The notes beneath the pieces were generated by a model that was not told the origin of the DNA, did no database searches, and saw nothing but the letters and a program-made list of their open reading frames with translations. Positions 53,624 through 58,841 of a stretch of 64,000 nucleotides of DNA are shown piece by piece. Within the stretch, counting starts at the first letter, position 1. The number at the start of each line of letters is the position of its first letter. The position numbers and the translations under genes are program-made. The stretch is from Salinivenus lutea (GTDB lineage Bacteria > Bacteroidota > Rhodothermia > Rhodothermales > Salinibacteraceae): positions 1 through 64,000 of the forward strand of contig NCRC01000010.1 of NCBI GenBank assembly GCA_002894685.1. Reading direction: 5' to 3'.

Positions 53624-55168
53624 CTACCGGTTGCGGCCGTACGATTCGTGGCTCGAGACCCAGTCGGACGACGAGATGGCGGCCCCCAGCGACAGCTCGC
53701 CGGCCAGAGCGGCCCCCGCCACAATCTCGGCGAACTTCTCGACTTTTCCTTTCCCGTAGCACCCCATGGCCTCCAGGCACTCGCGCTGGGTGGGCAGGCC
53801 GGTGCCCCCGCCGTAGGTGGCCACGATGAGGGACGGGATGGTGAGTGAGATGTGCAGGTCGCCGTCGTCGGACAGCTCCGTGTAGAGCACGCCGGCCGAC
53901 GACTCGGCCACGTTGGCCACGTCCTGCCCGGTGGCGATGAACATGGCCGTGATCGCGTTCGGGGAGTGCGCACCGTTGTTGTTCGCGCCGGAGAGGAAGG
54001 CGCCCACGGTCGACACGTTCCAGTGGTAGTGCAGGCTCTCGGGCTCCACCCGCATGTGCTGGATCAGCACGTCGCGGTCGATGGTGGCCTCGGCGGTGAC
54101 CCGCTTGCCGCGCGTCTTCATCACATTCACCTGCGAGGCCTTCTTGTCGGTCGCAAAGTTCGACTCCAGGTAGAAGTGCTGGATGGGCTCCGGGTACTGG
54201 TCCATGATCCAGCCGCAGGCGGCAAAGGTGGCGCGCCCCACCATGTTTTGCCCCGCCGCGTCCCCCGTCTCGTAGTTGAAGCGCAGGTACGCAAACTTAT
54301 TCGACTGGTACTGGTCGATGTAGAGCATCTTGGCGACGCTGGAGGTCGCCTCGGCTTCCTCGCGGATTGCGTTGGTGTGCGCGTCCACCCAGTGCGTGAA
54401 GTCGCGGGCCTCGCGGGCGTCGCGGAAGACGAAAACCGGCGCGCGCTGCATGCAGTCGTTCACGATGGTCGACTTCACGCCGCCGCTCAGGTTGCACGCC
54501 TTGATGCCCCGGTTGTAAGAGGCCACGAGCGTGCCCTCGGACGTGGCGAGGGGAATGAGGAAATCGTCCTGCGCGTGCTCGCCGTTCACCGTGAGCGGCC
54601 CGGCAAAGCCGAGGGGGATCTGGGCGACGCCGGTGAAGTTCTCGACGTTGCCCTTCGTGGTGTGGGGGTCGAAGGAGTAGCGCGAGGTGTGGTCGAGCTC
54701 GGCCCCGCTGTACTCCTCCACGAACTGCCGGCGCTCGTCGATGATGGCGTCGCTGTAGTCGTCGTCCTTGTCGCGCGGGATGCGGGGAATCTCGTCGTCC
54801 GGCTCCGAGATCGAGTCCTCGACCGCAAAGCTGAGCTCGCCGAACGGCTGGGCGCGAAAGGTCAGCGCGATCTGGTGCTTGCCGGCGTCCAGGGGCGGGC
54901 GCCGGACGCGCAGGTGCAGCGTGCGCTTCAGCGGAAAGTCGAGGGTGGTGTCGCCGCCCAGCGTGTCGGCCGCGTACGTGTCGCCGTCCCCCATAAACAA
55001 GTGAATGCGCCCGCGGGGGACGGACTCGCCGTCGATTGTCACGTCGAGCAGCTCCGTAAGCGTCGCGTCCTTGAGTCGGTTTTTGAGGGCAAACTCGACG
55101 CCCCGGTCGGTATTCTCGAGGCTGCCAAAGGTGTAGAGTTGCTTCAGCAGGGCGCTGGGGATGAACAT
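53624..55168 (-). CDS. HMG-CoA reductase with N-terminal beta domain
   Basis: 514 aa. Residues ~1-115 form a strand-rich domain (FIPSALLKQLYTFGSLENTD, VRRPPLDAGKHQIALTFRAQ) absent from standard enzymes. The catalytic part follows: GNVENFTGVAQIPLGFAGPL, the ATSEGTLVASYNRG block with the catalytic Glu, GDAAGQNMVGRAT for cofactor binding, ATDKKASQVN with the catalytic Lys, and GGGTGLPTQRECLEAMG near the end. This makes mevalonate from HMG-CoA with NADPH. Class I-like by motif spacing. The flanks hold no other mevalonate gene. The repeat array lies upstream. Confidence 0.88.
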   Translation of the reverse strand: MFIPSALLKQLYTFGSLENTDRGVEFALKNRLKDATLTELLDVTIDGESVPRGRIHLFMGDGDTYAADTLGGDTTLDFPLKRTLHLRVRRPPLDAGKHQIALTFRAQPFGELSFAVEDSISEPDDEIPRIPRDKDDDYSDAIIDERRQFVEEYSGAELDHTSRYSFDPHTTKGNVENFTGVAQIPLGFAGPLTVNGEHAQDDFLIPLATSEGTLVASYNRGIKACNLSGGVKSTIVNDCMQRAPVFVFRDAREARDFTHWVDAHTNAIREEAEATSSVAKMLYIDQYQSNKFAYLRFNYETGDAAGQNMVGRATFAACGWIMDQYPEPIQHFYLESNFATDKKASQVNVMKTRGKRVTAEATIDRDVLIQHMRVEPESLHYHWNVSTVGAFLSGANNNGAHSPNAITAMFIATGQDVANVAESSAGVLYTELSDDGDLHISLTIPSLIVATYGGGTGLPTQRECLEAMGCYGKGKVEKFAEIVAGAALAGELSLGAAISSSDWVSSHESYGRNR

Positions 55169-55491
55169 GAACGGCGGGGACCTGGAAAGAGAGGCGCGAG
55201 CGGGAGTAGCGGCTCAACGCGGAGGGCCCCGGTGGGTTCAGGTGGAGCTCTTGGGCGCGCCCCGTTCGGGATGGGCACTGTCGTAAGGGAGGGGGCACAC
55301 CGGATGATCCTCCCCACACGTCATCCCGGGCGGAGCGCTGTGACCGAAGGGAGCGCGTCCTCCTGGAGGGGCGAATCCGATGAATAATGAAGAATCGGGC
55401 CCCATCCGGCGATTGAAAAGGACCGGCGGGGGCCCGGCGTCCGAAACGCACTTGCAATGTGCCAGCGCGCGCTCGATGCAATCGGCGGGAT

Positions 55492-55767
55492 GGATCCCGG
55501 CTCGGCCCTCGCGACGGAGGTCGCTCGGTTGGTCGGGATGACACATGCTTGTGGTCGGGCGGGACCGGCGGTGTCGTGGAGGAAGAGGCAAGCTCATTCC
55601 AAATACACTTACATGTCATCCCGGACGGAGCGACGCGAACATCCGGAAACGAGTATAGCGAGTTCACGCCAGTAATCTATCTTCGCGGTCAAGGGAGGCA
55701 CGGCACATTCTGCGACCTCTCCCATTGCCAGCTATTTTCAATGTAACGTTGACCCGGGCGTTGTGAT
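55492..55767. repeat. Repeat unit 1 (linker B)
   Basis: P1 in its 'CCTCGCGACG' loop variant (55492-55542), spacer, P2 at 55616-55648 ending ATCCGGAAAC rather than ATCCGGGATC, then linker B to 55767. Confidence 0.85.
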
Positions 55768-56014
55768 GGATCCCGGCTCGGCGGTCGGTCCGCAGTCCCT
55801 CCCTTGGCCGGGATGACGAGTGCTGGGGCCAGGCGGGACCGGCGGTGTCGTGAAGAATGAGGCGGCCCATTCCGAATACACTTACACGTCATCCCGGACG
55901 GAGCGACGCGGAGATCCGGGATCTATTCAGTGGATGAAGGAACCGAGCCGTCATTCGATCGCCATAAAGCCCCGGCAGCCACCGGCGGCGTGGGCCTAGC
56001 CTCGGCGGGAGGAT
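55768..56014. repeat. Repeat unit 2 (linker A)
   Basis: P1 in its 'GGTCGGTCCGC' loop variant (55768-55817), spacer, P2 (55889-55922), linker A (ending GGCGGGAGGAT). Confidence 0.85.
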
Positions 56015-56271
56015 GGATCCCGGCGCGGCGGTCGGTCCGCGGTCCCTCCCTTGGCCGGGATGACGAGTGCTGGGGGGCGGGCGGGAGCGGCGGTGTCGTG
56101 AAGGAAGAGGTAAGCCCATTCTGGACACACTTACACGTCATCCCGGACGACGTGAACGGAGTGAACGGAGATCCGGGATCTATTCAGTGGATGAAGGAAC
56201 CGAGCCGTCATTCGATTGCCATAAAGCCCCGGCAGCCACCGACGGCGTGGGCCTAGCCTCGGCGGGAGGAT
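56015..56271. repeat. Repeat unit 3 (linker A)
   Basis: As unit 2, but the P2 loop is ~10 bp longer, with an internal duplication: GTGAACGGA occurs twice at 56152-56169. Confidence 0.85.
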
Positions 56272-56545
56272 GGATCCCGGCGCGGCGGTCGGTCCGCGGT
56301 CCCTTCCTTGGCCGGGATGACAGGTGCTTGTGGCCAGGCGGGACCAGCGGTGTCGTGGAGGAAGAGGCGGGCCCATTCCGAATCCACTCACACGTCATTC
56401 CCGGACAGAGCGAAGCGGAGATCCGGAAATGAGCGGAGCGAGTTCACGCCAGTAATCTATCTCGCGGTCAAGGGAGGCACGGTACATTTTGCGGCCTCCC
56501 CCATCGCCAACTATTTCCAATGTGACGCTGACCTGGCGTTGTGAT
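56272..56545. repeat. Repeat unit 4 (linker B)
   Basis: P1 (56272-56321), spacer, P2 (56394-56428), linker B. Linker B here and in unit 1 share TTCACGCCAGTAATCTATCT and the GATGGATCCCGGCTCGGC junction. Confidence 0.85.
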
Positions 56546-56760
56546 GGATCCCGGCTCGGCAGTCGGTCCGCGGTCCTTCCCTTGCCCGGGAGGACACGTG
56601 CCAGGGTCGACTGGAGTCGGCACGGTCGGACGGAGGGGCAGCGTATTCCGATCACACCAACACGTCCTCCCGAACGGGGGGAGCCGTACAAACGAAGATC
56701 CGGATCTATTTGGCGGGTCAAAAATCTACACTTATAGATGACCCCAGACCATTCCGCGCC

Positions 56761-57081
56761 ATGGCCACTCGCGGCTACGTCTACATTCTCACCAACAAGC
56801 CGAACGGCACGCTGTACGTCGGCGTCACCAGCGATCCCATCGAGCGGATCCGTCGTCACAAGGAGGGAGGAGGCTCCCGGTTTGCGGCACGATACAACCT
56901 CACGCGGCTGGTGCACATCGAAGAACACGACACGATGCCCGTGGCCCTCCGCCGAGAAAAGCGGCTCAAACGCTGGCGTCGGGCGTGGAAGCTGTCGCTG
57001 ATTCGGGACCACAATCCGACGTGGGAGGACCGCTACGAGGAGATCTGTCGTCTCCTCGCCGGCGGTGGGCGGCTTCCCTGA
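56761..57081 (+). CDS. GIY-YIG endonuclease, small single-domain (YhbQ/UPF0213-like)
   Basis: 106 aa from ATG 56761 (MATRGYVYILTNKPNG); an in-frame extension to 56710 has no features. Catalytic elements: GYVYILTNKPNGTLYVGVT (the two Tyr of GIY-YIG), the Arg in DPIERIRRHK, and the metal-binding Glu in LRREKRLKRWRRAWK. Length is that of the stand-alone UPF0213 type, which lacks a DNA-binding domain. It sits inside one unit of the palindromic repeat array, flanked by the same end sequences as the gene-less units. A role in moving or maintaining the repeats is inferred from that. DNA cleavage is the family activity, but the target is unknown. Confidence 0.92.
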   Translation: MATRGYVYILTNKPNGTLYVGVTSDPIERIRRHKEGGGSRFAARYNLTRLVHIEEHDTMPVALRREKRLKRWRRAWKLSLIRDHNPTWEDRYEEICRLLAGGGRLP

Positions 57082-57237
57082 GGGGCGGCCTTGCGGGGCC
57101 TCTTCCGTGTCGTTCGGGCGGGTGGACAGATCCGGGCACGGGGCTCCTGGCGACCGGACGGGGGGACGGGCGCTGATCGCCGACCGCAACCAGCACCGCC
57201 GTACAGATGAAGTAGCGGGCATTGAACACATCTGCAG
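57082..57237. other. Intergenic part of long repeat unit
   Basis: 156 bp after the GIY-YIG stop with no gene or match to linkers A or B; unique to the long unit. Confidence 0.4.
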
Positions 57238-57257
57238 CTCATCCCGGGCGGGAGGAT

Positions 57258-57507
57258 GGATCCCGGCGCGGCCCTCGCGACGGGCGTCGCTCGGTTGGCC
57301 GGGATGACACGTGCTTGTGGTCGGGCGGGACCGGCGGTGTCGTGGAGGAAGAGGCAAGCTCATTCCAAATACACTTACATGTCATCCCGGACGGAGCGAC
57401 GCGGAGATCCGGGATCTATTCAGTGGATGAAGGAGCCGAGCCGTTATTCGACTGCCAGAAAGCCTCGGCAGCCACCGACGGCGTGGGCCTAGCCTCGGCG
57501 GGAGGAT
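57258..57507. repeat. Repeat unit 6 (linker A)
   Basis: P1 in the 'CCTCGCGACG' loop variant, like unit 1, then spacer, P2 (57381-57416) and linker A. The spacer, GTGCTTGTGGTCGGGCGGGA, is nearly identical to that of unit 1, so units 1 and 6 are closest relatives across the nuclease gene. Confidence 0.85.
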
Positions 57508-57600
57508 GGATCCCGGCGCGGCGGTCGGTCCGCGGTCCCTCCCTTGGCCGGGATGACACGTGCTGGGGGCGGGCGGGACCGGCGGTGTCGTGGAGGACGA
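57508..57600. repeat. Repeat unit 7, truncated
   Basis: P1 (57508-57557) and about 40 bp of spacer. It ends where the 3' end of the ArsA-HSP20 gene begins (stop at 57618). Confidence 0.8.
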
Positions 57601-57617: not shown

Positions 57618-58841
57618 CTATTGTGCCGCCCCTCCGTCCAGGGCGAAACGGACCCGGAGCCAGCCGTCGCGCAGGGCGTGCTCGGTGAGCGTGTAGTAGC
57701 TGAGGAAGTTGGGGAGCAGGTAGTTGCGGCGCTGGTTGGCCACCTGCACCACCAGCTGGTCGCCGGCCTGGCGCACGGACACCTCTTCGTCCTCGATGAA
57801 GGGCAGGCGCAGATGGAGCACGTAGTTGTCGCCGTCCTCCTCCACCTTGAAGGTCGGCTCGTCGTAGAGCACGGCTGTCGGGTCGTCATCCGGGTACATT
57901 GCGTCGGCGACGCGGCTGAGGCGCTCGGCGCCAAAGACCTCTTCGCCCATGTGCGGCACGCGCAGGATGGGGAGCGGCCCGAAGCTGTGTTCGATCTCCT
58001 GCAGGTATTCGCGCTGAGACCGCACGTACCCCTCGAAGAACGAGTTTTCGGGCACCTGCTCCTCCGGCAGCACACGGTTTACCACCACGCTGTCCACCGC
58101 GTAGCCGTAGAGTTGCAGGTACGTGTAGGCCCGCCGCGCCTCCTCGATCACCATCTTCTCAGGGTTCATCACGAGGCGGATCGAGGTCGTCTCGGGCGTG
58201 GCGAGCACGTCGCGGATGCGCTCCAGCTTCTCGAAGATGACCTCCAGCTCCTCGTACCCCTTGTCCAGCGGAATGCCGGTCGTTTTGCGCACGCCGAACC
58301 CGAGCGACTTCACGGCCAGCTTCTGGAAGGGAAAGGCCTTGGCCAGCCACCACTGCGTGACCTGCGGGAGGGTGAGGAGCGTGAGCGTCTCGCCGGTGGG
58401 GGCACTGTCGACCACGATGCAGTCGTAGTCCTCTTCGCGGAGGGCCTGCTCCAGCCACAGCAGCACCGAGCCCTCGTTCATGCCGGGCAGGGCGGCCATC
58501 TCCTCCGCCGCGATCTGGTCGACCCCCTGCCAGCGGAAGACGGTGAGCATGAGCTCGCGCATGTTGCCCCAGTACTTCTTCATCGAGTAGTAGAGGTCGA
58601 CCTCCTGCGCAAACAGGTTTTTCTCGACCTCTTCGGCCTCGGGGCCCAGGTCCTGGTCGAGCGCGTCGGCGAGGCTGTGGGCGGGGTCCGAGGACAGGAT
58701 GAGTGTTTTTTTGCCTTGCCGCGCGGCCCGCTGGGCGGTGGCGGCGGCGCAGGTGGTTTTGCCCACGCCCCCCTTGCCGGTAAAGAGCAGGATGCGCGTG
58801 CCGAACGTCGGGGTTGACTCGTCGTCGGTAGGAAACAGCAT
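57618..58841 (-). CDS. ArsA/Get3-family ATPase with C-terminal HSP20-like domain
   Basis: 407 aa. One ATPase domain: P-loop FTGKGGVGKTTCA at 20-32, SSDPAHSLADALDQ (switch I), VDSAPTGETLTLL (switch II). It lacks the second half and the Cys triad of the arsenic ArsA at 23006, so it is not an arsenite pump ATPase. Residues ~315-407 (FKVEEDGDNYVLHLRLPFI, VRQAGDQLVVQV) look like an alpha-crystallin/HSP20 sandwich. The combination is known from Chlorobi and other bacteria; function is unclear, perhaps hydrophobic-segment targeting or chaperoning. Confidence 0.9.
   Translation of the reverse strand: MLFPTDDESTPTFGTRILLFTGKGGVGKTTCAAATAQRAARQGKKTLILSSDPAHSLADALDQDLGPEAEEVEKNLFAQEVDLYYSMKKYWGNMRELMLTVFRWQGVDQIAAEEMAALPGMNEGSVLLWLEQALREEDYDCIVVDSAPTGETLTLLTLPQVTQWWLAKAFPFQKLAVKSLGFGVRKTTGIPLDKGYEELEVIFEKLERIRDVLATPETTSIRLVMNPEKMVIEEARRAYTYLQLYGYAVDSVVVNRVLPEEQVPENSFFEGYVRSQREYLQEIEHSFGPLPILRVPHMGEEVFGAERLSRVADAMYPDDDPTAVLYDEPTFKVEEDGDNYVLHLRLPFIEDEEVSVRQAGDQLVVQVANQRRNYLLPNFLSYYTLTEHALRDGWLRVRFALDGGAAQ

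Follow-up and report, generated by a model that had tools for sequence, protein, structure and literature searches.

A small GIY-YIG nuclease gene and CGTC-tagged palindromic repeats appear to travel as one unit in many bacterial phyla

The window, a 64-kb stretch (64,000 nucleotides) of contig NCRC01000010.1 of Salinivenus lutea, carries an array of seven units at 55320-57557. Each unit consists of a palindrome P1, a spacer and a palindrome P2, with similar linkers between the units (Table 1), and the seven units in a row noticed in a preliminary description of this DNA were thereby recovered. P1 has the form GTC-ATCCCGG(A)-loop-(T)CCGGGAT-CTA. P2 is a palindrome of the same kind but inverted, and on the minus strand reads Y-GTC-ATCCCGGC-loop-GCCGGGAT-CCAT. 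Because P2 is opposite in orientation to P1, each unit is an inverted pair of tagged palindromes with the tags outermost. The translated motif VIPAKGG, earlier assigned to P1 on the minus strand, was found to belong to P2 on that strand, and P1 reads VIPDG on the plus strand. Perfect GTC-tagged hairpins with a stem of at least 7 bp numbered eight in the window, all of them within the array, compared to 0-1 in shuffled windows (n=5). The stability of the hairpins was unremarkable for their G+C content, and the evidence for the palindromes is their common tag, their position and their recurrence, not hairpin stability. No Rfam match was observed in the array region. One of the seven units, the sixth, holds an intact GIY-YIG gene. 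The gene had been thought to replace a linker between units; it lies between the decayed P1 and the intact P2 of the sixth unit, and thus takes the place of the spacer.

Table 1. Features of the array and its neighbours (positions within the window)
Feature	Position	Strand	Description
Neighbouring gene, one side of the array insertion point	53624..55168	-	presumably HMG-CoA-reductase-like
Unit 1	55320..55542	+	P1 55320-55377 (left half intact, right half decayed), spacer, P2 55490-55542
Unit 2	55615..55817	+	P1 55615-55651, spacer type 2, P2 55766-55817
Unit 3	55888..56064	+	P1 55888-55924 (perfect 8-bp stem), spacer type 1, P2 56013-56064 (perfect stem, minus orientation)
Unit 4	56137..56321	+	P1 56137-56181, spacer type 1, P2 56270-56321
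Unit 5	56394..56595	+	P1 56394-56432 (decayed), spacer type 2, P2 56544-56595 (tag decayed to GTCCTCC)
Unit 6, full element	56664..57308	+	decayed P1 56664-56708, GIY-YIG gene, truncated P1 57238-57251, intact P2 57256-57308
GIY-YIG nuclease gene	56761..57081	+	ATG at 56761, stop at 57081; 106 aa, W subtype (KRWRRAWK motif); Pfam PF01541, E=4.5e-16
Unit 7	57381..57557	+	P1 57381-57417 (perfect), spacer type 1, P2 57506-57557 (perfect)
Neighbouring gene, other side of the array	57618..58841	-	presumably ArsA-like ATPase

An in-frame TTG upstream of the gene, at 56710, is an alternative start that gives a protein of 123 aa. In the GIY-YIG A2 alignment the invariant or nearly invariant columns were Y8, Y19, G21, R29, E66 and N85. 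The window protein retains the invariant residues, including the conserved Tyr, Tyr, Arg, Glu and Asn, and is expected to be active because all active-site positions are conserved. The AlphaFold (AF2) model was confident (pLDDT 93.9). Its best Foldseek matches were UPF0213 (1zg2) and Slx1, with UvrC lower down, none of them below E=0.001. UPF0213 proteins share the small single-domain form, whereas YhbQ-like genes from the same family of genomes lack both flanking REPs and the C-terminal motif of the W and K subtypes described below. Slx1 works together with Slx4, which is absent from the window element. With GIY-YIG homing endonucleases of the I-TevI type the protein has in common the catalytic fold, the active-site residues and the idea of selfish spread by DNA cutting. 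However, it is a single domain, no intron, intein or C-terminal DNA-binding module is present, palindromes of its own delimit the gene, and the NCBIfam model for group I intron endonucleases scored 19.2 bits, well under its cut-off of 56.05. PADLOC gave no defence-family match of note. A phage origin of the gene was set aside, since no phage record encodes the family and the PHROGs matches, to homing endonucleases, were weak. Few plasmids carry it, and with no phages doing so the family is mostly chromosomal. The window's genome also has two UvrC-like GIY-YIG frames, 12 kb apart on one contig (G000:C11:40181 and C11:27866).

The array is an insertion. In nine other congeneric genomes in which both neighbouring genes could be placed, the two genes are adjacent with a gap of 75-180 bp, while the same gap holds about 2.4 kb of array in the window genome; the comparison of empty and filled sites proposed earlier thus found both states. 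A sister genome, G012, has the array at the same place between the two neighbours, with a protein that is 93% identical. Pattern searches, on which all genome-wide counts are based, found no further site with the P1 core (0-1 mismatch) in the window's draft genome, where the repeats are extragenic and confined to a single locus, and about 17 further dispersed P1 copies in G012. These further copies lie inside near-identical MITEs of about 330 bp with terminal repeats of their own, TAGTGCCGTGTCAACC...GGTTTGACACAACACTA, and a P1-P2 unit inside (L116-L131, L133). Their spread is better ascribed to the MITE and points to hitch-hiking, not REP movement; an initial reading of these copies as REP spread was therefore dropped. 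G012 also carries a second W gene (L134), flanked by a different palindrome, GTCGTCCCAAA-CTTGA-TTTGGGAC, that also accompanies the W genes in G004 and G009.

Bacterial REPs fall into two superfamilies, GTAG, which is linked to RAYT transposases, and CGTC, which includes the neisserial dRS3 and the Rickettsia RPE-4 and RPE-6 repeats and occurs in many phyla (Di Nocera, De Gregorio and Rocco 2013, PMC3733652). Members of the CGTC superfamily have stems of 8-9 bp that begin with AT, CCA-like tails and some permitted loop variants, and they 'apparently lack a dedicated transposase' and adjoin no transposase gene (PMC3733652). P1 and P2 of the window are CGTC-tagged REPs (Y-GTC-ATCCCGG...CCGGGAT-C[CT]A) with one deviation, a long loop. 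The unpaired CGTC or TGTC at one end is present, the window tag being GTC after C or T, and 74 of the 79 left ends had one of these two as the outer base. The 8-bp stems, ATCCCGGA and ATCCCGGC, carry AT at their first two positions, P2 ends in CCA and P1 in CTA, and the units are paired and clustered as in the superfamily. The loops measure 16-30 nt in the window, compared to the 4-5 nt of the superfamily, a length found in most relatives. A nuclease partner is not described in the 2013 paper (PMC3733652). In N. gonorrhoeae a GIY-YIG gene was found within a dRS3-type array, in the same layout as in the window.

The protein family was searched for in 84,980 species genomes, and the 80 best matches were examined for flanking hairpins. 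A perfect tagged hairpin was present within 500 bp in 60 of these 80 and on both sides in 42. The palindrome sequences were diverse, and the host taxa included Alpha-, Beta-, Gamma- and Deltaproteobacteria, Bacteroidota, Planctomycetes, Nitrospinae, Omnitrophus, Bipolaricaulota and Parcubacteria. Best matches, relatives and a phylum-wide sample together gave 224 distinct genes for scoring, with loci picked by protein score and not by repeats. Subtypes were told apart by the residue at the WK-motif position, which is Trp72 in the domain sequence and W76 in the alignment. Of 151 W genes, drawn from many phyla, 137 had a tagged REP no more than 350 bp away and 108 had one on both sides, in line with the clustering near GIY-YIG genes that the preliminary description had proposed to test in relatives and contrary to its refuting case, nuclease genes that are never flanked elsewhere. 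K genes had a flanking REP in 41 of 52 cases, on both sides in 32. Among UvrC and YhbQ-like GIY-YIG genes, 0 of 10 had a flanking REP. At G332:C1:2945597-2947072 five GIY-YIG genes that lie further from the W and K subtypes follow one another in tandem every 315 bp, and three more tandem genes were seen at 712545-713395 of G332.

The two subtypes go with two hairpin classes, and the coupling is labelled W/S and K/G (subtype/REP class). A continuous stem of at least 7 bp flanked 131 of the 137 W genes with REPs, the other six having the K-type class, and a stem of 5-6 bp flanked all 41 K genes with REPs, followed by a GA motif in 37. The coupling was highly significant (p=2.9e-34), to be read with the fact that the first hairpin definition (stem of at least 7 bp) missed the K class, which was assigned after some K flanks had been seen. 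Among loci fetched after class assignment the top-scoring genes agreed, and several low-scoring, more distant matches had no REP. K genes had been considered as a repeat-free negative control; this was rejected once a search for flanking repeats made without a stem assumption revealed their own REP class. With a 5-bp stem and a GA motif, this class lies outside the stem lengths of 8-9 bp in the 2013 paper. In nine genomes with both subtypes, every gene had its own class (W 14/14, K 13/13), so that the pairing tracks the protein and not the genome. Within the W subtype, four-nucleotide G-loops and five-nucleotide loops starting with a pyrimidine also track the protein tree, with 12 class changes compared to a shuffled minimum of 28, and in genomes with both loop kinds the nearest outside relative was of the same loop class for 9 of 11 paralogues. 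The loop classes are best separated by residues 67 and 69, which flank the conserved Trp of the KxWxR motif. With only four phylogenetically independent pairs this coupling was not significant when phylogeny was allowed for, and it is a lead, not a result.

The REP nearest to the gene pointed its tag outward in 174 of 235 cases, and left and right 7-nt stems were identical in 69 of 99 loci, compared to 7.0 after shuffling (maximum 15 in 1000 shuffles). In pairs of W loci whose DNA homology extends past the gene, it ended within 3 bp of the outer tag edge at 159 of 293 ends, against 4.3 expected and 12 at the inner edge; these 293 ends are not independent, as they represent 74 distinct gene sides, and part of the signal could come from orthologues that have kept their REPs while the DNA around them diverged. 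Paralogues that occupy different sites in a single genome and end at the tags give cleaner cases, seen in G139 (three copies) and G127 (two copies, 99% identity over 420 bp). A direct repeat of at least 4 bp at the ends, such as the target-site duplication of DDE transposons and MITEs, was found in none of 98 elements. A search for empty sites in Rhizobium plasmids gave one-sided matches only and no clean empty site.

The locus is probably a REP-nuclease-REP mobile element, bounded by inverted CGTC REPs with outward tags, together with gene-less REP-spacer-REP derivatives which would have accumulated beside the full element. Both parts of this reading had been anticipated. The view of nuclease and repeats as one unit gains from the recurrence of REP-gene-REP with other palindromes in many phyla and from paralogues that share DNA up to the outer REP edges, and the gene-less units are likely to be short derivatives. 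We infer three steps for its working. The nuclease would recognise hairpins of its own REP class once they are extruded, whether as single-stranded DNA or in a cruciform, as might happen at a replication fork; it would then cut hydrolytically at the hairpin base, close to the Y|GTC tag; and host repair would copy either the full element or a REP pair lacking the gene to a new or neighbouring place.

A comparable arrangement is known from REPtrons, which combine REPs with a RAYT (TnpA-REP). In both, a single gene lies between inverted copies of a tagged palindrome, gene-less derivatives occur as dimers or clusters, protein lineages are matched to palindrome types, and few gene copies accompany many repeats. 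The nuclease genes, like RAYTs, seldom reach very high copy number. The missing target duplication in W elements is a further likeness. REPtrons differ in their GTAG tag, where GTC (CGTC/TGTC) is found here, and in their HUH tyrosine transposase (Y1_Tnp, PF01797), whereas the sole gene here is of the GIY-YIG type, for which hydrolytic chemistry and hence no covalent DNA-protein intermediate is expected. The window element is therefore not a member of the RAYT family, although it may work comparably. A likeness to REP/RAYT systems with another nuclease fold, as first suggested, agrees with the PF01541 assignment and with the lack of any PF01797 match in the whole window genome. On balance, if with less assurance than for the locus itself, we favour the broader reading in which the CGTC REP superfamily has a dedicated mobility enzyme, the stand-alone GIY-YIG nuclease, with W and K acting on two REP classes, in an element class that would parallel REP/RAYT with another enzyme superfamily and another chemistry.

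The occurrence of gene and repeats was compared in 296 genomes of the window genome's phylum, using the pattern GTCATTCCNG-N6-11-GGAATC and counting genomes with at least three copies as repeat-rich. A type-A (GIY-YIG family) gene was present in 52 of 54 genomes with at least three REPs and in 28 of 28 with at least ten (odds ratio 25, p=1e-11; p=1e-5 at genus level), and reversed-pattern controls were essentially empty. Class-S REPs were found with a K gene only in G208 (333), G314 (90) and G186 (15), and with neither a W nor a K gene in G132 (9). Many of those in G208 form compact inverted pairs about 46 bp apart. These four genomes indicate that no W gene is needed for class-S REPs to persist or to spread, and the genome correlation thus holds at the family level and is weaker at the subtype level. 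The earlier concern that repeats might abound in relatives without the gene was for the most part not borne out, given the 52 of 54 repeat-rich genomes with a type-A gene. Either the REPs outlive their enzyme, as decayed flanked copies suggest, or another agent spreads them. In a rival reading the GIY-YIG gene is a passenger, cargo that happened to be captured between two REPs that are spread by other machinery, and besides the orphan REPs the presence of PF01797 Y1 transposases, which include RAYTs, in 46 of the 54 repeat-rich genomes is in keeping with this. We consider it unlikely. PF01797 gave no match in the window genome or in eight repeat-rich genomes, including G314 with its 90 copies, its link to the repeats (odds ratio 2.8, p=0.008) is far weaker than that of the GIY-YIG gene, and CGTC REPs adjoin no transposase gene (PMC3733652). 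Cargo status also gives no reason for two subtypes with two hairpin classes inside one genome.

Slightly less probable again is a host function, in which a domesticated structure-specific nuclease would process REP hairpins, by trimming or resolving them, or would be under REP control, and would not move the REPs. The nearest solved folds besides UPF0213, Slx1 and UvrC, are both repair nucleases, the family is mostly chromosomal, and a REP is usually found a short way upstream of the gene, at a median of 56 bp from the start of the domain, a position from which expression could be controlled. Against it, several divergent copies can occur in one genome (up to 15 matches) and the presence of the family is patchy; the window locus shows insertion polymorphism; paralogues are delimited by REP tags; and decayed GIY-YIG genes with in-frame stops still have REPs alongside (L262, L265, L274). 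All of these are typical of a mobile element. A coincidence, both REPs and small genes gathering in intergenic DNA, where REPs are mainly found (PMC3733652), is very improbable given the absence of REPs beside other GIY-YIG genes, the matched stems, the subtype coupling and its within-genome result, and the roughly 20-fold fall in REP density from 3.17/kb near W genes to 0.163/kb beyond 700 bp (one REP definition), a distant control that covers all DNA and not intergenic DNA only, and on which the W/K coupling does not depend.

The mobile-element reading, drawn from sequence comparisons, is that the small GIY-YIG gene and the short palindromic repeats travel as one unit in many phyla. Each kind of enzyme has its own kind of repeat, which suggests that the nuclease is the long-missing enzyme of a class of repeats common in bacteria. 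In the open-access literature no paper linking GIY-YIG genes with REPs was found, preprints and subscription papers being outside the scope of the search. The family, small and widespread, is currently annotated merely as 'GIY-YIG nuclease family protein'. If the coupling reflects function, this nuclease would be the missing partner of the CGTC REPs, among them the neisserial dRS3 and the Rickettsia palindromes, and the question could be tested with one protein and a few oligonucleotides. If true, a lone hydrolytic nuclease together with hairpin ends would make up a type of mobile element. This would be unexpected, because movement by such an enzyme would have to lean on host repair.
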